A stretch of DNA of 64,000 bases from Paludisphaera rhizosphaerae (GTDB taxonomy: Bacteria > Planctomycetota > Planctomycetia > Isosphaerales > Isosphaeraceae): positions 62,001 through 126,000 of the forward strand of contig NZ_JAALCR010000006.1 of NCBI RefSeq assembly GCF_011065895.1. Reading direction: 5' to 3'. Below are positions 26,252 to 60,127 of the stretch, one piece after another. Position 1 is the stretch's first letter. Each line of letters opens with the position of its first letter. Position numbers and translations under genes: made by a program. The notes beneath the pieces are model-generated. The model did no database searches. It saw only the letters and a program-made list of their open reading frames with translations, and was not told the origin of the DNA.

Positions 26252-26905
26252 TCACCTCTGCGGGGCTGCGTATGTGCTCTGGGTCTGCGGAAAGTACTCG
26301 CGGACCTCGAGCGTGTACCCCGTGTCGGACTTCGTAAGAGGACCCGTCACCTGCACCTTCAGCCCCTCGCCGTTCGGATTCTTCACCATGGAAGCCAGTT
26401 GCTCATAGGCGTTCAGCTCGTCGGGTTCGGGCTGCCGGGGGGCGTGCTTCTTTGAATTCCATTGGAGCTTGTGCTCGAAGCGTCGGAGGGCAATGGGGCG
26501 GTCGACGCCGGGGATGTGCAGGGTGAGGCCGCCGTCGGTGCTTGAGACAGCGCCGTCGGCAGTCAACTCGACGCCCCGGAAGATGTAAGCCTGGCCGACA
26601 CACTCCTTGAACTTCGAAGCCCACGCCTCGGGGTCGGGAAAGGCATTGTCCTCGAGGTATACCCGGGCCGTACAAGTGTAACCGTTGCCGGCCTTGTCGA
26701 CGGCTTTGACGCCGTCGAGCTGCATCAACGCCCAATAGGCGCCGCTCCAGCATCCGCCTTCGATGGCATTCTCATAGGGGCAAGTCATCGTGATCCCCAC
26801 CACAGTCTGCCTTACCTGTGCGACTGCGGGCTCAGCCCACAGGGCGAGCGCCAAGAGCAAGCAGAGAAGGTATTGGCATCGAAGCATTCGTTGGGTGCGA
26901 CGCAT
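26252..26905 (-). CDS. small secreted protein with a HMA-like Cys-rich first half
   Basis: 217 residues with a signal peptide (LLCLLLALALWAEPAVAQ). Residues about 32-130 read TVVGITMTCPYENAI, CWSGAYWALMQLDGVKAVD, CTARVYLEDNAFPDPEAW and AYIFRGVELTADG: strand-helix-strand-strand-helix-strand spacing and the 'LDGV' turn of heavy-metal-associated folds, but the CxxC is replaced by separated cysteines. I infer, without proof, a metal-handling or ferredoxin-like fold. Its place directly after a copper-radical oxidase gene (75 bp) makes copper delivery an attractive hypothesis. Confidence 0.7.
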   Translation of the reverse strand: MRRTQRMLRCQYLLCLLLALALWAEPAVAQVRQTVVGITMTCPYENAIEGGCWSGAYWALMQLDGVKAVDKAGNGYTCTARVYLEDNAFPDPEAWASKFKECVGQAYIFRGVELTADGAVSSTDGGLTLHIPGVDRPIALRRFEHKLQWNSKKHAPRQPEPDELNAYEQLASMVKNPNGEGLKVQVTGPLTKSDTGYTLEVREYFPQTQSTYAAPQR

Positions 26906-32684: not shown

Positions 32685-32863
32685 TTCGCTTAATCCACTT
32701 TTCGCCGCGATTGCTGGTCGAGTCGCATCAACTCCACGGCCGGCTTGTGTACGCAGCTTGAACAACCCGCTCCACGATCGTGATCGCGACGCCACTCGGT
32801 CTCGTGCCGCGAGGCTGGTACGCTTCCAGTCTTGCTTATTTCTTCGTGAGGGGGAGCTTCTCG

Positions 32864-34636
32864 ATGAGCCAATCGCACGCCGCAAGTTGTACGGCAATCT
32901 TATGCTGCGCCTTCTCCGCGACGGTGTTTGTCGCAAGTTCGATCGCGCAGGAGCAGCCTCGCCAGGAGCAGACCAGGGCGGATTTCTCAAAGTACTTCGA
33001 ACTCCAGAAGAAGGTCGCGGAAGCCCCTTCCGCGCCGCTGGGTGCTCGCAGGATGGCGGCGGCTGCCGCGGTCAAGGCGGCCCCTAGCAAGGACGCGGTG
33101 CGAAGCCGTCTGCTTAAGGCCCAAGAGGAACGAACTCCTCAGCCTAGCGCGATGGACTTCGTTGCGAACAACCCGGTCCTTGAGGAGGTCTCCGCCAGCG
33201 GCGATCCCGAGTTCGCCCAAGTCGTTTTCTGGAACGAAGTCGCTCTGAGGATTACGGCGAACGATCACACGGCGCCGCCGCCGGGCTCGAACCTGGATAC
33301 CCACCCGTTCGAGCAGGTGGGTCCCGTGCGCACCAGCCGCGCTCTGGCCATCGTGCACATCGCGATGTTCGAGTCCATCAATGCCGTGCAGCGAAAGTTC
33401 GAAAGCTATAAGAATATTCAGCAAAAAATCTTCCAGACGACGTCGCTGCCGGCAGACATCGACGCCTCTCAGGTCTCGATCCGCCACGCGATCGCCCAAG
33501 CGGCGCATCGCGCGTTGACTGCGTTGTACCCGGGAAAGACGCCCGATCTGAATCTGACGCTGGCCGCTAACCTGACCGCCATTCAGGAGACCCCGGTCCG
33601 GGCGATCAACGGGCTGGCGATTGGCGACGCAGCCGCCAACGCCATCCTTGACCTCCGTAAGCTCGACGGATCGGAGATGCCCGACCCAGACGTCGCCGGC
33701 TTCCAGACCACTGACCCGCTCAAGTGGCAGCGCGATCCTCTGAGTCTGGACGTTGCCACTGCGCTGGGGGCGAACTGGCGGTACGTCAAACCGTTCGTGC
33801 TTGAGAAGGCTGACGTGTTCCGCCCCCCTCTGCCGCCCCCGGTGGGCGACTCGAGGTTTGTCGCCGCGTTTAAGGAGGTTTTGGAGAAGGGGGGCGACCC
33901 GGCCGCAGGCATGACCGATCCACCAGGCAACGCCGACCGTAGGCCAACCCCAACGACCCGGACCGACGATGAGACTTTCATTGGAAAGTTCTGGGCCTAC
34001 GACGGAACGGCGCTGCTCTGCGCCCCGCCGCGGCTCTACAACATGATCGCGACGTCGCTGGCGCTCCGCGAGAAGAAGGACACAATCACTACGGCGCTTG
34101 ATCTGGCCCGGTTCCTTGCGCTGGTCAACGTCGCCCTGGCCGATGCGGGGATCGCCGCCTGGGAAGCCAAATTCTGTTACATCTACCCTCGGCCGATTAC
34201 GATGATCCGCGCGGCGAGCCCGGGCATGTTTCCAGTCGACGCCCCCCGCCCATTCTGGACACCGCTTGGGGCGCCGGTCAGCAACGGCCGTGCGGGGCGG
34301 CTCAATTTCTCGCCGCCATTTCCAGCTTACCCCTCGGGTCACGCCGTCTTCGGGGGGGCGCTGTTCCAGATGTTCCGAAAATACTGGGCGGACCCAGCCG
34401 GTCCCGCGTTCACGTTCGTTTCGGACGAGTTCAACGGGCACAACAGCGACCCCGGCGCCAGTCAGCCCCGCCCACTTCTCCCGGTGACATTTCCGGGATT
34501 CGCGAAGGCCGAAATGGACAACGCCGAGAGTCGGATCTTTCTGGGGATCCACTGGCGGCCCGACGCTGAGGAGGGCATCATCCAGGGCAATAAAGTCGCC
34601 GATTACGTATTTGATCACGTCTTCAAACCGCTGTGA
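32864..34636 (+). CDS. secreted vanadium-dependent haloperoxidase (PAP2 superfamily)
   Basis: 590 residues from the ATG at 32864, giving a signal peptide (AILCCAFSATVFVASSIAQ). The C-terminal half has the complete vanadate/phosphate-binding signature: KFCYIYPRP (K-x6-R-P), YPSGHAVFGGAL (PSGH), and SRIFLGIHWRPD (S-R-x5-H-x3-D). A helical N-terminal region with RTSRALAIVHIAMFESINAV is typical of bacterial vanadium haloperoxidase-like proteins. Such enzymes oxidise halides with H2O2; some relatives are acid phosphatases, so halide activity is likely but unproven. The gene stands alone, with transposase fossils on each side. Confidence 0.88.
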   Translation: MSQSHAASCTAILCCAFSATVFVASSIAQEQPRQEQTRADFSKYFELQKKVAEAPSAPLGARRMAAAAAVKAAPSKDAVRSRLLKAQEERTPQPSAMDFVANNPVLEEVSASGDPEFAQVVFWNEVALRITANDHTAPPPGSNLDTHPFEQVGPVRTSRALAIVHIAMFESINAVQRKFESYKNIQQKIFQTTSLPADIDASQVSIRHAIAQAAHRALTALYPGKTPDLNLTLAANLTAIQETPVRAINGLAIGDAAANAILDLRKLDGSEMPDPDVAGFQTTDPLKWQRDPLSLDVATALGANWRYVKPFVLEKADVFRPPLPPPVGDSRFVAAFKEVLEKGGDPAAGMTDPPGNADRRPTPTTRTDDETFIGKFWAYDGTALLCAPPRLYNMIATSLALREKKDTITTALDLARFLALVNVALADAGIAAWEAKFCYIYPRPITMIRAASPGMFPVDAPRPFWTPLGAPVSNGRAGRLNFSPPFPAYPSGHAVFGGALFQMFRKYWADPAGPAFTFVSDEFNGHNSDPGASQPRPLLPVTFPGFAKAEMDNAESRIFLGIHWRPDAEEGIIQGNKVADYVFDHVFKPL

Positions 34637-52466: not shown

Positions 52467-55400
52467 TCAGCGAAGGTCTGTCAGCTTCGCGGTAACGATT
52501 CGCGGAGCTTCGAACCGCTCGACGCCCCAGGGGACGATGATCTTGTGCTCCGCACCCACAGCCGGAATCGATTCGAAGCCGGCAGGCAGGGCGCGGACGA
52601 TGATGCGAGCCTCCCCCTCCGGCAGGCGCAGATGATAAAGTCCGTCCAGGTCGGTGGTCGCCGTCCGACCCCCGGGGCGGGCTTCCACCACGGCGCCGGG
52701 GAGTCCGCGGCCCTGCATTGAGTCGATGACCTTTCCCACGACCTCGACGCCTTCGATCGCTTCCAAGTCGACGTGAAGCGTGCCGTCGACCGGCGGCTTG
52801 AGGTCATCCTTCGCGCGATAGGTCCACAGCTTGCATTCGTCCGGCCCGTGGAGCACGAGGTCGACCGCGGCAGGCACAATGGGACCGATCCTGTAACGGC
52901 CGTCCGCCCGCACCGAGACCCGGTTCAGGCCGCGGGGATGAACCGAGAAAGCGTCGCTCTTCGGTTCTCGGCCGACGGCCTCGACCGACAATTGCGAGAG
53001 ATCGAGTCCGGGGATCTCCGTCGAGACTCGGCCTTCGATCCAGGAAGCCGGCACGGCCGCCAGCGTCGGCCGGTCGCCGGGGCGAAATTCGGCCGCGTTC
53101 AACGGAGCCGGGTCACCTTGCGAGTTGATACGCGCCGGACGGACTGTCACCGGTCGGCCCTGGCCGTCCGTGATCTCCAACCATAGAGTCGTCTCCGTGT
53201 TCGGCAGCGATTCCGAGAACTGGAACGAACCATCGACGGCCGTCGTCGCGACGACTGGGAGCCGTCCCGGGGCGTGAAGCCCCTGCGGGTCATCGGGGAT
53301 GGGCAGGCGAATGCGGTGGATCATTCGATTGTCACCCGTGCCCTGATAAAATTGGGCCCGAGTCGCCTGGATGCGTGCGCCGGCCATGGGATGACCGTCT
53401 CGATCGACGAGGACGCCGCCGAATTCTCCGGGCCGATCGAGCTTGACGTTGAAGTCGCGGCCCGTCTCGGCATTGAACCTCGGATTGGTCGCCCACAAAT
53501 CAGATCCGACCGCGGAAACAAAACCCGGCGCGCGTGCCAGCACGCAAACCAGGCTGACCGACGGGTCGACTTTCCAGGAGTATCGCCCACGATCATCGCT
53601 CGTGAGCGAGGCTCGAAGACGCCCCGGCAAGGGCCCGTTTCCCGCGTCCTCGATGACCACTGTGGCACCCGGAACGGGTCTACCCTCCGGGTCGAGGACG
53701 ACGCCCTTGAGTTCCATGGCGGGTTCCTCGCGAGGGGGCAGGACGACCTCGACGAGCCCGTCGGCCGTGGGTTGGATCTCGAATGGCTGTTCCTGGCCGC
53801 CGGGCGAGGCGATCTTCAGTGCGAAGGGGGCGTCCGAGGGGATCTTGATTCGGGAGGCCATTATGGGGTCGAGCGTCAGGCGCCCGTCGGCGTTCGTCGT
53901 GCCGTTCCGAAGACCCATCAAGCCGTCTCGGCCGGGCCAGGAGATCCTCGCCCCGGCGACGGGCCGGTGGTCGGCGTCGACGACGCGGAACCGAGCGACG
54001 ACGTAAGGCGGCACCTCGATCGTCGGGACCTCGAACCGCTCAACGCCCTCCGGGACTTGCACGCCGCGCTTGGACTCCAGTCGCAGGATGGGTGAGTCTC
54101 CTCGGACGTCGACGCCGACCATCTGGCGGATCATCGACTCGCCCCGGATACGGTAGCGGCCTTCGGCGTCGGTGCGGGTTCGAGCCATGCGGTTGAGCAA
54201 ATGGATCTCGGGCATGTAAAGGCCGACCGTCGCCCCGGCCATGGGCCGGTTCGTCCCCCGCTCCACCACCTTCCCGATCATCTCAACGCCCCGCCGCAGG
54301 GTGACGGACGCCTCGGTCGTGGCACCTAACGTCGGGGAGACGCTCAAGGCATCATTGGTGATCCAGTCCTGATCACGGCCCGGTCCTTCGACGAGGAGGT
54401 CGACCTTCTCCGCGTCCAGGTAGTCCAGCGTGAACTTGCCGTCTGCGGCGACGGGAACTGCGCAGGAGCGGTTAAGGTCGAGGTTGTCCATTCGGCCTCG
54501 CGTGAGCCGGACGCGGATCCACAACCTGGAAAGGTCTACGTCAGGAACCTCGGATCGGACCTTCCCTTCGACCCGGGCCGACGGAACCGCCGTGATCTGG
54601 GTTTGGGCCTTGGTCGAGACGGCGACAAGCTTCTCCAGCCAGGCATTGTGAAGCCAGCGGCGATCCGAGGCGGGTTGAGGGATCATGGGCCGGCCGTCGG
54701 CGGTCCGGATTTCAAGCCGGACCTCGGTGCCCCAATCCTTGCAACCGTGGGGGAACGAGAACGAGCCATCGGCGGCCGTCGTCGTGGTCGTATTGGGGAC
54801 GAGGGAGTCGATATCCAGCGCCACGGGCCCGCTCCGACCTGTACTATCGCCCTCGGTTCGAACCAGGGCGATCTGGGCCAGTCGCACCGTCGCTCCGGCG
54901 ACCGGCTTCCCACGCTCATCGACCAGTCGACAGGAGAACGGCGCGGCCGCCGGGAACTTCAAGAGCCACTCCAGGCCGCCGGGCCGATAGTCCGGAGACA
55001 TGCCACCGTACGACGGCACGCATCCCGGGGCCCAGAACAGGAAGCGGCTGCGGTCCTTCAGGTCGACCCCCTTGAGGGCGAACCGCCCACCAGCGTCGGT
55101 GCGGACGGTGAGTCGCCCTCCGACTCGCGGGTTCGCCTCGACGCCGACGACGCCGGCAAGCGGCTGCCCTTGCGGGTCGACAACCATCCCGCGGAACTCG
55201 TCGGCGCCACCCTCGCGACGAGGCAGCGTTATCTTGACGACTTCCTCGCCTGCGGCGTGGACCTGGAGTTTGTGCGTCTGCCCTCCGGGCGCGACGACCT
55301 CCACCATTGCCGGCTCGTCGCCGGGGATTGTGTTCCACGGGGAGGCGGCGACGAGGAGGCCGTCGGCACCGGTCTTCCCGAAGACGGGCCAGTATTCGAC

Positions 55401-58400
55401 GCCCTTGAGAAGCAGGTCATCGACCTGCGGTTTCGCGCCGGGCACCGATGGGATGAACGAGATCGCGAACTTGACGCTTGAATAGATCTTGTCTCCCGAA
55501 GCGATGGTCGTCGTCCAGGAGCCGGCGGGAGCGTCGGCGGGAACGAAGAGAGTGGGCTTCCCGGCGCTGACCGTGACACTCGCGTCGGCAACCGGTCGGC
55601 GGTCAGCGTCGATGACGCGAATGCGCGGCACGATGTGGGGCGGGGCCTCGATCGTCGGGGGCTCGAAGGCGGCGACGCCATCGGGGATCGTCACAAATCG
55701 CTTGGATTCCACTTGCGGTACGAGCGCGTGGGACCGGGGATCGACGCCGAAGACGTACCGACGAGGTGAAAGGCGCAGTCGGTAACGGCCATCGACGTCG
55801 GTGCGGACCTGGACGGTCTGATCGAAAAACTGCATGTCCGCCACCTGCGCGACGAACGCCACCCCCGCCAGGGGGCGGCCCGTTTTCCGCTCGACGACCT
55901 TGCCGATCACTTCCACACCCGGGCGGAGCGACAACGACGCTTCGGTCGTCGCGCCGAGAGTGGGTTGAATGTCCCTCGCGTCGTCGACGATCCAGTCCTG
56001 GTGGCGGCCAGGGCCTTCGACTCTAAGATCGACCTTCGTGTTGCTCAGACAGTCGAATGCGAACCAGCCGTCGGCGGTGACGGGGACGCTCGGGAGGACG
56101 TCCTCCAGCGATGCAAACCGCGCCAGCGACGACCGGACCTTCACTCGCAACTGGGAAAGGTCGACTCCCGGGACCTGGGAGGTGATCTTGCCCGAAAGCC
56201 GCGCGGCGGGGACGACTGTGATTTGGGTCTTCTCCGTGGTCGAGACGGCGACCGACTCGATCGTCCAGGGGAATCCTGGCCTGGGAGTGATTGGCTTCGC
56301 GAAGGGTTGGGGGACCATCATCCGGCCGTCTCGCGTGCGGATCGTTAGATTCACCTCCGTCGCCGCCGACTTCGACGCATACGGAAAGGTGAACGATCCG
56401 TCGTCGTTCGTCGTCGTGGTCGTCTCGGGAAAGGGCGAATCGCTCTGGAGAGGGACAAGGTCGCATGAGCCGCTTTGGCCGTCCTTCGAATCGATGACAG
56501 CGACTTGTGTCAAGCGTACCGTCGCGCCGGTGATCGGCTTCCCGACCGCGTCGACGATCCGCCCGGAGAACGGCGCGGCCTCCTGAAGTTTGCAGACCCA
56601 CTTCGTGTCTTGGGGGCGATCGACGAACGGAATGGTCGGGGACGCCGGGAAGTAACCCGGGGCGGAGAAGACGAAGCGGACGGGCTTGTTCCGGTCGACA
56701 TTATCCAGCGTGAACCGGCCGTCGGCATCGGTGACGACTCGTCGGGCATTGCGGCCGAGGGGCGCTTCCACCCCGACAGCACCGGCGATGGGACGGTTTT
56801 GGGGATCGACGACCATCCCGTGGAACACATCAGCTGCGCCCTGTCTCGGCGGCAGCACGACCTCGACGCCGCCGGTCGCGGAGGCGAACCTGGATTCATG
56901 CTTCGTGCCATCGGGAAGATCGACCCACACCTTGACGGGTTCATCGCCGGGCACAAGGTCCGAGGACTCAGTGACGGCAAGTCGCCCGTCCGCGTCCGTC
57001 TCGCCAAAGACGGTCCAAAACTCCGCACTCTTGAGACGTTGAGCATCAGAAAACGACTTCGCATCAGCGTCTGAAACGACGCTAACCGTGAAGTTGTCCT
57101 CTCCTCCGCCGGTCAATGGAAGTGCAGGGACGGGAGTCGGGAAGTAACTCCCGACGCACGCCGTGACCTTCATCCCCGCGAGTGGCCGATGGTCGGCATC
57201 GACCACGCGGACGCGGGCGGCGACGTAAGGCGGCATCTCGATCGTCGGCGCCTCGAATCTGGCGACTCCCTCGGGGACCGTCACGAATCGCTTGGATTCC
57301 ATCTCTTGCCACTGATCCCATCCTGCGTGGACGCTGACGCCGAAGATGCGTCGGCCATGCTCCATTCGAAGCTTATAACGTCCCTGGGCGTCTGTGGTGA
57401 CCCGGGCGGCATGGTGGCCAAACATGAGCTTCGGATCGCTCGCCCCCAAGGTGACTCCCGAGGCCGGGCGACCCGTGCCCCTCTCGACGACCTTGCCGAC
57501 GACTTCGACGCCGGTCCTCAGTGTCAGGGTGGCCTTTGTAGTTGCACCCAGGATCGGCTGGATATTCCTGGCGTCAGAGGCAATCCAGTCCTGGTCACGC
57601 CCCGGCCCTTCGACACGGAGATCGATGCTGCCGGCGTTCAGGCCGTCGATCGTGAATCGGCCGTCGGCGGCGACGGGGACGCTGGGAGTTTCGTCGAGAG
57701 GGAATGGCCCCGGCGACCGTCCGATCGACGGCCAGGTCCGAACTCTGAGCTGGGAGAGATCCACTCCCTGGACCTGTGAAGCAACACTGCCCTCCAGCCG
57801 CGCCGCTGGGACAACCGTAATCCGAGTATTCTCCACGGTCGAGACGGCGACCAGTCCGATCGTGAACGGATTACGGGGATTGAACGGAGAGTCTTTCCAC
57901 TCGACACGAGGCACCATCAGGCGGCCGTTGCCCGTTCTGATCTCCAGGTCCACGTCTGTCGACACAGTGCTGGAAGCGTAGGGGAAGGTGAATGAGCCGT
58001 CGGCGGCCGTCGTCCCCGAGAGGCCGGGTGCGGGCCAGTCGGCGCCGATGGGGAAGGTGCTGGTTTTGAAACCATTGTCACCCTGCTTCTCGCTGGCGAC
58101 GATCCGCTTCAGACGCACTGTCGCGCCGGCGATAGGCTCGCCGTGATCGTCGACGACCTGGCCTGAAAATGGCGAGGCCTCTCGGAGAGGGAATCTCCAC
58201 TTCGTGGCTTGCGGACGAGAGATGAACTTGACCAGCCCACGCGCAGGGATGTACCCGGGGGCCCAGAAGACGAAAGGAGTGTGTTTCGTCAGGTTCGCCC
58301 CTTCGAGCGTGAATCGACCTTCGGCGTCCGTGACGACGCGTCGGGATGACGGTCCAATGGGTATCTCGACGCCGGTCACACCGGCGATCGGACGCCCTTG

Positions 58401-59582
58401 CGAGTCGATGATCTCCCCGCTGAAGACGTCGAACTTGGGGGCGGGGCGTCCTGCTGCGGGGGGCGGTTCCTGGCGCGGTGGTTCACTCGCCTCGGAGAGG
58501 CGGACGCGCAGGCCGCCGATGCCCAGTGCGGCGACAAGCGCAAGAGGGCCGATGGTCAGGGTGCGGAACAGCGAAGGGCGTGAGAGCGAACGCGTCATGT
58601 CATCCTCCAGGAGGCGTTCGATGCGGATCGCCGTGGTTCGGCGGTCCAGGAAGGGGAGCGAGGTCGACGGGACGGAGCGGCCGGTCGGCCGGCGGGACAG
58701 CTCCAGGAGCAGTCGGGCCAGGCCTTTCGGGTCGTCGCCCAGGGATACGGCCGCCTCGTCGCAGAGCAACTCCCGCTCGCGGTCAAGGCGGCTCAGAAGC
58801 CAGTGGACCAAAGGGTGATGCCACGACGGGACGCGGATCAGCTCCTGCAAGAGCTTCCACGCGTCGTCATATCGTCGGACGTGCGCGAGTTCATGCCAGA
58901 GCGCCGCCCGACGCTGGTCGGTGGATCGCTCGTCCCAGGCTTCGGCTCCAGGAAGGAGGATCAGCGGCCGGAAGCCGCCGACGACCACCGGCGACGTCGT
59001 TCCTGAATGCCTGGCGAGTCGGACGGGCCGCGATGTCGGCAACTCGGCGCGGCATTCGTCGAACAGGGATAAGTCGTCGGCCGACGCCGAGACGGCCCGT
59101 CGCGACCACCTGGCGAGCGAGCCGGCCCCTAGCAGGAGTCTCGCGAGCATCATGATCGTTCCGGCGGCCCAGACGCCGGCCGCTGAACGCCAGGCGACCT
59201 TCGGCCAATCGATCGGCTCCGGCGGGGGCGCCGCGGGGATCTCGACGGCGACGATGGGTTCGATCTCGGCGATCGTCTCCACGATCGGTTCGCGGGGCAT
59301 GACGAGCGGCGGCGGGGGCTCGTGGAGGGGCACGCTCGGTGGTGCCGGCGCAGGTGTTGCAACGGCCGGCGCCGGCCAGGGGATGGCGGCGTCTCCCCAG
59401 CGCGGGGAGACGGCCAAGAGCGGGCCAGCCAGCAGGACGGCGGTGCAAAGTGCGTGTCGGGTGGCCGCACGCCTCGGCGGGCGGATCGCCAGCCAGACGG
59501 CCAGCGCGGCGATCAGGAAGCCCCATCGGATCGATGTGTCGACGAGTCGATAAACGAGGATGGCGGCGGGGTCGTCGCTCAT
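52467..59582 (-). CDS. giant BlaR1-like M56 metallopeptidase with four carboxypeptidase-regulatory-like repeat units
   Basis: 2371 residues. Residues 1 to about 360 form an M56/BlaR1 peptidase: N-terminal membrane helices (about 18-32 and 42-58), another near 132-150, HELAH (in LWHELAHVRRYDD, near 232) and the downstream Glu in LLCDEAAVSLG, then a helix near 340. BlaR1-type sensors cleave their BlaI repressor when an extracellular domain binds a ligand. Here the usual penicillin-binding sensor is replaced by four long units starting near residues 384, 913, 1461 and 1952, each with several beta-sandwich blocks (GQVVDDHGEPIAGATVRL-type) of the carboxypeptidase-regulatory family. Start ATGA overlaps the blaI-type stop. 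Among the longest genes of this type I would expect. Confidence 0.9.
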   Translation of the reverse strand: MSDDPAAILVYRLVDTSIRWGFLIAALAVWLAIRPPRRAATRHALCTAVLLAGPLLAVSPRWGDAAIPWPAPAVATPAPAPPSVPLHEPPPPLVMPREPIVETIAEIEPIVAVEIPAAPPPEPIDWPKVAWRSAAGVWAAGTIMMLARLLLGAGSLARWSRRAVSASADDLSLFDECRAELPTSRPVRLARHSGTTSPVVVGGFRPLILLPGAEAWDERSTDQRRAALWHELAHVRRYDDAWKLLQELIRVPSWHHPLVHWLLSRLDRERELLCDEAAVSLGDDPKGLARLLLELSRRPTGRSVPSTSLPFLDRRTTAIRIERLLEDDMTRSLSRPSLFRTLTIGPLALVAALGIGGLRVRLSEASEPPRQEPPPAAGRPAPKFDVFSGEIIDSQGRPIAGVTGVEIPIGPSSRRVVTDAEGRFTLEGANLTKHTPFVFWAPGYIPARGLVKFISRPQATKWRFPLREASPFSGQVVDDHGEPIAGATVRLKRIVASEKQGDNGFKTSTFPIGADWPAPGLSGTTAADGSFTFPYASSTVSTDVDLEIRTGNGRLMVPRVEWKDSPFNPRNPFTIGLVAVSTVENTRITVVPAARLEGSVASQVQGVDLSQLRVRTWPSIGRSPGPFPLDETPSVPVAADGRFTIDGLNAGSIDLRVEGPGRDQDWIASDARNIQPILGATTKATLTLRTGVEVVGKVVERGTGRPASGVTLGASDPKLMFGHHAARVTTDAQGRYKLRMEHGRRIFGVSVHAGWDQWQEMESKRFVTVPEGVARFEAPTIEMPPYVAARVRVVDADHRPLAGMKVTACVGSYFPTPVPALPLTGGGEDNFTVSVVSDADAKSFSDAQRLKSAEFWTVFGETDADGRLAVTESSDLVPGDEPVKVWVDLPDGTKHESRFASATGGVEVVLPPRQGAADVFHGMVVDPQNRPIAGAVGVEAPLGRNARRVVTDADGRFTLDNVDRNKPVRFVFSAPGYFPASPTIPFVDRPQDTKWVCKLQEAAPFSGRIVDAVGKPITGATVRLTQVAVIDSKDGQSGSCDLVPLQSDSPFPETTTTTNDDGSFTFPYASKSAATEVNLTIRTRDGRMMVPQPFAKPITPRPGFPWTIESVAVSTTEKTQITVVPAARLSGKITSQVPGVDLSQLRVKVRSSLARFASLEDVLPSVPVTADGWFAFDCLSNTKVDLRVEGPGRHQDWIVDDARDIQPTLGATTEASLSLRPGVEVIGKVVERKTGRPLAGVAFVAQVADMQFFDQTVQVRTDVDGRYRLRLSPRRYVFGVDPRSHALVPQVESKRFVTIPDGVAAFEPPTIEAPPHIVPRIRVIDADRRPVADASVTVSAGKPTLFVPADAPAGSWTTTIASGDKIYSSVKFAISFIPSVPGAKPQVDDLLLKGVEYWPVFGKTGADGLLVAASPWNTIPGDEPAMVEVVAPGGQTHKLQVHAAGEEVVKITLPRREGGADEFRGMVVDPQGQPLAGVVGVEANPRVGGRLTVRTDAGGRFALKGVDLKDRSRFLFWAPGCVPSYGGMSPDYRPGGLEWLLKFPAAAPFSCRLVDERGKPVAGATVRLAQIALVRTEGDSTGRSGPVALDIDSLVPNTTTTTAADGSFSFPHGCKDWGTEVRLEIRTADGRPMIPQPASDRRWLHNAWLEKLVAVSTKAQTQITAVPSARVEGKVRSEVPDVDLSRLWIRVRLTRGRMDNLDLNRSCAVPVAADGKFTLDYLDAEKVDLLVEGPGRDQDWITNDALSVSPTLGATTEASVTLRRGVEMIGKVVERGTNRPMAGATVGLYMPEIHLLNRMARTRTDAEGRYRIRGESMIRQMVGVDVRGDSPILRLESKRGVQVPEGVERFEVPTIEVPPYVVARFRVVDADHRPVAGARISWPGRDGLMGLRNGTTNADGRLTLDPIMASRIKIPSDAPFALKIASPGGQEQPFEIQPTADGLVEVVLPPREEPAMELKGVVLDPEGRPVPGATVVIEDAGNGPLPGRLRASLTSDDRGRYSWKVDPSVSLVCVLARAPGFVSAVGSDLWATNPRFNAETGRDFNVKLDRPGEFGGVLVDRDGHPMAGARIQATRAQFYQGTGDNRMIHRIRLPIPDDPQGLHAPGRLPVVATTAVDGSFQFSESLPNTETTLWLEITDGQGRPVTVRPARINSQGDPAPLNAAEFRPGDRPTLAAVPASWIEGRVSTEIPGLDLSQLSVEAVGREPKSDAFSVHPRGLNRVSVRADGRYRIGPIVPAAVDLVLHGPDECKLWTYRAKDDLKPPVDGTLHVDLEAIEGVEVVGKVIDSMQGRGLPGAVVEARPGGRTATTDLDGLYHLRLPEGEARIIVRALPAGFESIPAVGAEHKIIVPWGVERFEAPRIVTAKLTDLR

Positions 59583-60007
59583 GGCTTCTTCCTCCGCCTG
59601 GTCGCCTTCTTCGGTTCGGCCTCGCCCCCCTGCTCCGCCTCGGCGAGCTTCGATTCGATGGCCCGGAGGTCGTCGGGGGCGATCTGCTCGGAGTCGACGA
59701 GTCCGAGGATCAGCTTCTCCGCCGATCCGTGGAAGAACCGCGCGAGGAAGTCCGAAAGCAGGCTGCCGGTCGCCTCGCGACTCGACACCGCAGGCCGGTA
59801 AACGTGCGTCTGGCCGTCCTTGTCGTGCTCCACGAGCCCGGCCTTCTCCATCTGCTGGAGCAGCCCGAGGACCGTCGTGTAAGGCTGCCGATCCCCGCGC
59901 GGGAGGTGCTCCATCAGCCCCCGCACCGTCAGCGGCCCGTGTTCCCAGAGGACCCGGAGGACCGCGAACTGTCGCTCCGTCATCGCCAGCACCTTACGCC
60001 CCGCCAT
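59579..60007 (-). CDS. BlaI/MecI/CopY family repressor
   Basis: 142 residues: MTERQFAVLRVLWEHGPLTVRGLMEHL and PYTTVLGLLQQMEKAGLVEHDKDG form the winged helix, and YRPAVSSREATGSLLSDFLARFF leads to the dimerisation helices. BlaI proteins repress operators with dyad TACA-type sites and are inactivated by cleavage by the cognate M56 protease. The stop overlaps the M56 gene's ATG by 4 nt, so the two are translationally coupled. Autoregulation from the 60008-60120 region is expected; I could not identify the operator with confidence. A Lys/Arg-rich C-terminal tail is unusual. Confidence 0.93.
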   Translation of the reverse strand: MAGRKVLAMTERQFAVLRVLWEHGPLTVRGLMEHLPRGDRQPYTTVLGLLQQMEKAGLVEHDKDGQTHVYRPAVSSREATGSLLSDFLARFFHGSAEKLILGLVDSEQIAPDDLRAIESKLAEAEQGGEAEPKKATRRRKKP

Positions 60008-60127
60008 TGCGATCCTCCTCGTGCGAACTTCGGCCTACGCGGCTGAACGTACGGATTGTTGCGTAGGTTGTGCGGCGGGTCAAGGGGGGATCGCGGGTGG
60101 GAGATCCTGGTGATACGATGAGCCTTT

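Follow-up and report, generated by a model that had tools for sequence, protein, structure and literature searches.

A putative envelope sensor built on a BlaI-BlaR1-type switch with an amplified beta-rod in Paludisphaera rhizosphaerae

Introduction

What might a BlaR1-type protease monitor when the domain following its membrane core is a rod of beta-sandwiches? BlaR1 has been studied mainly as an antibiotic-resistance receptor. The locus examined here lies in a window (the whole stretch of DNA analysed) of 64,000 nucleotides from Paludisphaera rhizosphaerae, for which an initial annotation, made from the letters alone, had proposed a BlaI-coupled M56 protease carrying a four-unit beta-rich sensor. 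Our literature search, for which most subscription journals were beyond reach, found no paper on such a giant beta-rod BlaI-M56 layout.

Results

The features on which the argument turns are as follows, with their coordinates in the window, strand and basis.

60078..60083 (-), predicted -35 hexamer TTGACC; TTGAC retained by 8 of the 9 orthologs, with 17 nt between it and AACAAT/AATAAT
60055..60060 (-), predicted -10 hexamer AACAAT, within the first dyad; AATAAT in most orthologs
60036..60065 (-), predicted BlaI operator, two overlapping 16-bp dyads TACG-N8-CGTA with a central TA common to both; present at the promoters of 8 of the 9 orthologs
59579..60007 (-), BlaI-family repressor gene, 142 aa; Penicillinase_R profile, matches to solved MecI/BlaI structures and ortholog conservation
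52467..59582 (-), M56 metallopeptidase gene with giant C-terminal beta-rod, 2371 aa; open reading frame and Pfam
58488..59582 (-), BlaR1-type core, residues 1-365; structure model and match to S. aureus BlaR1 8ext
58881..58895 (-), HELAH zinc motif, residues 230-234; invariance in 6 aligned sequences
58755..58763 (-), CDE motif, residues 274-276, presumed to supply the third zinc ligand; invariance in 6 aligned sequences
56841..58436 (-), sensor unit U1, type A, residues 383-914, five beta-sandwich domains; alignment, profile, model and fold comparison
55212..56837 (-), sensor unit U2, type A, residues 916-1457; 52.1% identity with U1
53721..55211 (-), sensor unit U3, type A, about residues 1458-1954; 48.6% identity with U1
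52470..53720 (-), sensor unit U4, type A divergent, four domains, residues 1955-2371; 31-32% identity with U1-U3, outside the U1-U3 clade

The protease gene overlaps the repressor gene in the window, as the initial annotation had it; its start codon overlaps the repressor stop by 4 nt, and ORF coordinates give a 4-nt overlap in 7/8 intact ortholog pairs; a ninth ortholog with a broken M56 frame (L099/L101) was left out of the overlap and module counts. No conserved third gene was found in the operon, the repressor-protease pair alone being common to all loci compared. We take the protease gene to be real because relatives have conserved the repressor and the protease core together, and because dS exceeds dN among U1-U3.

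The repressor matches Penicillinase_R (PF03965; E 4.3e-25, 88.8 bits against a cut-off of 22.6) and the solved MecI/BlaI structures 2g9w, 1sd6 and 1okr. According to a report on BlaR1-BlaI (PMC9834060), BlaR1 cleaves BlaI, and the scissile bond of S. aureus BlaI is Asn101-Phe102. Alignment with MecI places Gly-Leu where the scissile Asn-Phe would be, with G102 and L103 invariant in 7 aligned sequences; since the S. aureus residues are replaced, the position of cleavage in this repressor stays putative.

The large protein matches Peptidase_M56 (PF05569; E 2.9e-21, 76.4 bits against a cut-off of 31) over residues 69-301, and in the core alignment H230, E231, L232 and H234, as well as C274, D275 and E276, are invariant in 6 aligned sequences. 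A structure model of residues 1-915, covering the core and U1 only and of moderate quality (10 sequences, mean pLDDT 69.9, pTM 0.48), places membrane helices at 5-33, 39-56, 126-162 and 338-355, with the protease fold between the last two. All of the top four structural matches of this model are S. aureus BlaR1, namely 8ext (chain A against the core: Z 15.8, rmsd 3.6, 242 residues), 8exs (Z 15.4), 8exp (14.6) and 8exr (13.9); the next row (10.9) is a match to a sensor domain. By sequence, a PDB search gave no match for the whole protein and one chance match for the core alone. With regard to the autocleavage of BlaR1 in the loop before helix 4, an invariant LPF (309-311) is a candidate counterpart: it falls near BlaR1 Phe284 if one goes by where the structural alignment stops (316 to 289). 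Judged by these alignments and the model, the core is a BlaR1-type four-helix protease with intact zinc motifs.

With respect to topology, the loop after helix 1 carries a charge of +4 and that between helices 2 and 3 a charge of -5. These charges, together with the N-out/C-out topology reported for BlaR1 in PMC9834060, predict that the repeats lie outside the cytoplasmic membrane, on the side opposite the protease. Both points on which the initial annotation had been left open to challenge, the integrity of the M56 active site and the side of the membrane on which the repeats lie, hence come out in its favour as far as prediction goes. Its statement that a beta-lactamase-like sensor is missing also holds, no beta-lactamase or transpeptidase model being among the 14 Pfam families found in the large protein, which scores 54.9 bits with NCBIfam blaR1_generic against a cut-off of 400.

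Instead, residues 383-2371 consist of four units of transthyretin/CnaB-like beta-sandwiches, with CarboxypepD_reg (PF13620) matching in 7 stretches (E 3.4e-81, 268.1 bits against a cut-off of 32.3), in agreement with the proposed four-unit sensor of about 2000 residues. Because BLAST of the protein against itself returned no off-diagonal matches, the units were compared by pairwise alignment, which gave 52.1% identity for U1-U2, 48.6% for U1-U3, 49.2% for U2-U3 and 31.0-32.4% for U4 against the other three (Z 17 to 77 against 50 shuffles). Each unit comprises five beta-sandwich domains (anchored in U1 at 386/469/592/690/784), which stay in register as 5+5+5+4, about 19 domains in total. The motifs described earlier as aligning in order across all four units do so in U1-U3, but not in U4, which is divergent and ends after four of the five domains. 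The modelled U1 is all beta. In fold, its domains resemble the SusC N-terminal extension (9hfj, Z 10.9), the transthyretin-like domains of carboxypeptidases N and D (2nsm, Z 10.4; 5aq0, Z 9.4), teneurin and CnaB2 (8bdw, Z 8.4). Foldseek places adhesins and pilins first; their TM-scores are low (0.05-0.16), as one would expect for rods of many domains.

A recent tandem array at the DNA level was rejected: Tandem Repeats Finder detected no tandem repeat, the repeat being visible in the protein alone, and U1-U3 are separated pairwise by a dS of about 1.0-1.2 (dN 0.43-0.50).

Orthologous cassettes are present in 9/45 family genomes, including its own (repressor match at least 74%, next best 44%); named carriers are Paludisphaera soli, Planctomycetales bacterium 71-10, two Isosphaeraceae MAGs, Aquisphaera insulae and Singulisphaera acidiphila. 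Conservation drops along the system, from the repressor (71-90% identical across 6 aligned orthologs) through the protease core (42-59%, 6 orthologs, BLAST) to U1 (24-32% across orthologs, BLAST). When the 8 intact orthologs were typed with a U1-U4 profile and by alignment of the remainder, their sensors resolved into modules A and B, each of about 490 residues and varying in number: four A in the window, two A in 71-10, A+B in G003, L096 and A. insulae, a single A in P. soli, one short A in G028, and B only in S. acidiphila. Module B has about 485 residues; any two of its four carriers share 52.3-64.6% identity in it, and its identity to A is 24-30%.

In the unit tree, which has long branches on U4, several forks and the outgroups and from which we use the U1-U3 clade alone, these three units group together with support of 100/100, and U4 and every other A module fall outside the group. 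The proposed internal amplification is thereby upheld, and, on this grouping, the triplication most likely took place in the window's lineage, once this had diverged from P. soli and 71-10. The older copy looks to be U4, although it sits on a long branch. At the locus left out of the counts (L101:1-3300, on a contig shared with L099), the ortholog repressor is intact, but the M56 frame is fragmented and no operator is present; this may be a decaying copy or an assembly error.

A search for the BlaI operator, which the initial annotation had recommended, led to the promoter of the repressor. The 9 aligned upstream regions have TTGAC, 17 nt and AATAAT (AACAAT in the window), and in 8/9 orthologs, with small changes, one TACG-N8-CGTA dyad spans the -10 box and is followed by a second that shares its middle TA. 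Among the matches listed, the exact double dyad occurs once in its own genome, at the window promoter. With up to 2 mismatches it occurs 8 times there against 7 for the reversed control, again among the matches listed, and other genomes scatter both ways (9 against 2 in G004, 3 against 26 in G031). Across 8 genomes, the pattern TACKNRAYAATNMGTA matched 9 times, at the 8 repressor promoters that had served to build it and at one place in G035:C1; its reversed control matched once. Neither the TACKNRAYAATNMGTA search nor the double-dyad searches revealed a second target gene. One known cop/BlaI-type operator is given in PMC7253601 as TACANNTGTA inside a 16-base site; this classic box is absent from the repressor promoter, which instead has TACG-N8-CGTA twice, and is present in the window only at 26671.

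The genome of P. rhizosphaerae (8.05 Mb, 110 contigs) holds 18 M56 proteins over the cut-off and 16 BlaI proteins by profile search. All 18 M56 genes lie in 15 BlaI-led cassettes, with three BlaI genes each leading two M56 genes (contigs C1, C8 and C12; loci L025, L029 and L031) and one BlaI gene (C5:246895) having no adjoining M56 gene. CarboxypepD_reg is over its cut-off in 11/18 of these M56 proteins, one of which is a second giant of 2430 aa. The genome-wide search suggested at the outset thus had a positive result, and we rejected the notion of a singular architecture. More widely, M56 proteins occur in at least 117/148 sampled genomes of the class (about 14 candidates scored per genome), with open frames of up to 2993 aa among the matches listed (M56 match of the longest at G116:C70:13323-13919).

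In addition, 100-nt upstream stretches of 15/16 of the genome's repressor genes, all except C5:246895, were each compared with 300 dinucleotide shuffles. Jointly, the 15 regions are enriched in dyads (Fisher P 1.8e-8), with the best single values at C9, C10, C40 and C5 (P 0.003) and the worst at C7 (0.86). The dyad of the window promoter is not significant by itself (P 0.08), so that the case for this operator rests on its conservation among orthologs. Dyads differ between paralogs, with CTACGGTGAAAACCGTAG at C1, two TACGAA...TTCGT types at C40, TACTACGATATGTAGTA at C8 and AGACAGACAGTCTGTCT at C4b, while TAC-N10-GTA is common to the C1, C40 and window promoters. We read this variation as pointing to private operators for the paralog cassettes. 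The dyad TACTACGATATGTAGTA, upstream of the L031 BlaI gene (near G000:C8:87453), resembles the mec operator, and those of the other paralogs differ from it.

Discussion

In this study, we consider it fairly probable, from sequence comparison and the partial model, that the locus encodes a BlaR1-like, self-regulating putative envelope sensor: a two-gene BlaI-BlaR1-type switch whose sensor has been swapped and amplified. Repressor dimers would bind both of the overlapping dyads at the -10 box, thereby silencing their own operon. Outside the cytoplasmic membrane, the rod would bind an envelope or surface ligand, or change state, upon which the cytoplasmic protease would cleave the repressor at the putative site; the operon would then be derepressed, and the receptor would make more of itself. 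The signals named in the initial annotation, a surface polymer or a mechanical or cell-wall state, are candidates only. Evolution would have kept repressor, operator and protease while changing the rod by adding, losing and swapping modules of about 490 residues, changes that may tune what is sensed or the distance from the membrane.

As in BlaR1-BlaI (MecR1-MecI) of S. aureus, a BlaI-type repressor adjoins a four-helix M56 protease of the same core fold, and the layout predicted here likewise is N-out/C-out, with an extracytoplasmic C-terminal domain after helix 4. In contrast to the S. aureus system, the window protein has about 1990 residues of beta-sandwich modules in place of a penicillin-binding sensor of about 250, as well as a Pro-rich loop at 61-132; the scissile residues of BlaI are changed, and no adjacent resistance gene is seen at the window locus. 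The protease-repressor pair is a BlaR1-type system, and the receptor, since the penicillin sensor is absent, is not BlaR1. Its domains share their fold with CarboxypepD_reg/transthyretin-like domains (the SusC N-terminal extension, the carboxypeptidase D TTL) and with CnaB pilin domains, but rather than a SusC plug extension, a carboxypeptidase appendage or a CnaB pilus shaft, they make up a rod attached to a protease. The same layout recurs in further M56 proteins of Planctomycetia (e.g. the 11 counted above), from which the window protein is set apart by its own module type A, its own predicted operator and its apparently lineage-specific triplication.

A different account would make the rod cargo rather than sensor: signal peptidase would clip the protein after helix 4, the shed rod would be the product, and BlaI-M56 would meter its synthesis. 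The operator found only at its own promoter in its own genome, among the matches listed, and the lack of a conserved third gene would indeed make the receptor itself the regulated product. Moreover, the motif [AVSTG]xA[QEDS] follows helix 4 in 4/7 orthologs and 8/18 of the genome's paralogs, against 20% of control stretches, and PMC9834060 documents that signal peptidase sheds the BlaR1 sensor by cutting the corresponding linker. The enrichment is nevertheless weak, a looser motif being found in 17/18 paralogs and 6/7 orthologs against 63% of controls; the motif in the window, SEA|S, is only a fair site; and the shedding of BlaR1 is proposed as turnover, not as output. On balance, we regard the cargo account as unlikely. 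That the operon belongs to a true regulon, reached through weaker or differently spaced operators and with autoregulation as one part of it, is a real possibility, if short of probable, and is compatible with a self-regulating sensor. Operators of the CopR/CopY family are poorly predicted by short palindromes, according to PMC7253601, and our search patterns required exact spacing or a -10 box; the near-equal counts of double dyad and reversed control in its own genome argue against such a regulon.

Given a core and a repressor of the same families as BlaR1/BlaI, the protein might be taken for a beta-lactam sensor and thus BlaR1 proper. We hold this to be extremely improbable, with the Pfam families found including no transpeptidase or beta-lactamase domain, the C-terminal part matching beta-sandwich families throughout, and the modelled U1 being beta. 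Scarcely more credible is a cytoplasmic repeat region or a dead protease. Helix 4 is moderately hydrophobic only, which could favour the former, but it is predicted at 338-355 and a hydrophobic stretch is there in all 7 orthologs listed; the invariant zinc residues speak against the latter.

Returning to the self-regulating sensor, we may extend it to a bolder and, in our estimation, doubtful proposal. Planctomycete BlaI-M56 systems would be multiplied, insulated one-protein circuits with private operators, the receptor being the regulated product and its giant beta-rod both reporting on the envelope and being shed into it, and sensor length would grow in 490-residue steps by module duplication. 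The signal-peptidase-like motifs after helix 4 and the shedding described for BlaR1 in PMC9834060 leave room for a shed rod as product.

One genome here carries the protease-repressor pair in 15 cassettes, many of whose sensors are non-antibiotic and modular and whose upstream dyads vary. The interest of the system lies in lineage-specific amplification, module shuffling and putative private operators. The natural series of 0, 1, 2 and 4 type-A modules on one conserved core offers a handle on how sensors are read by cores of the BlaR1 type; the system may also provide a route to finding what planctomycetes monitor in their unusual envelope.

Some further observations accompany this work. A second giant M56 protein of P. 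rhizosphaerae (L028:5215-12507, 2430 aa) has a different beta-sandwich array, and genome G004 contains a frame of 2431 aa that matches M56 (L072). The BlaI-family gene at L111:3755-4273 has no M56 neighbour. Elsewhere in the window, 32780-34636 gives a weak, below-cut-off match to the vanadium chloroperoxidase N-terminal domain, and an exact, cop/bla-box-like TACAAGTGTA stands at 26671-26680, where 0.02 such sites would be expected in the window.
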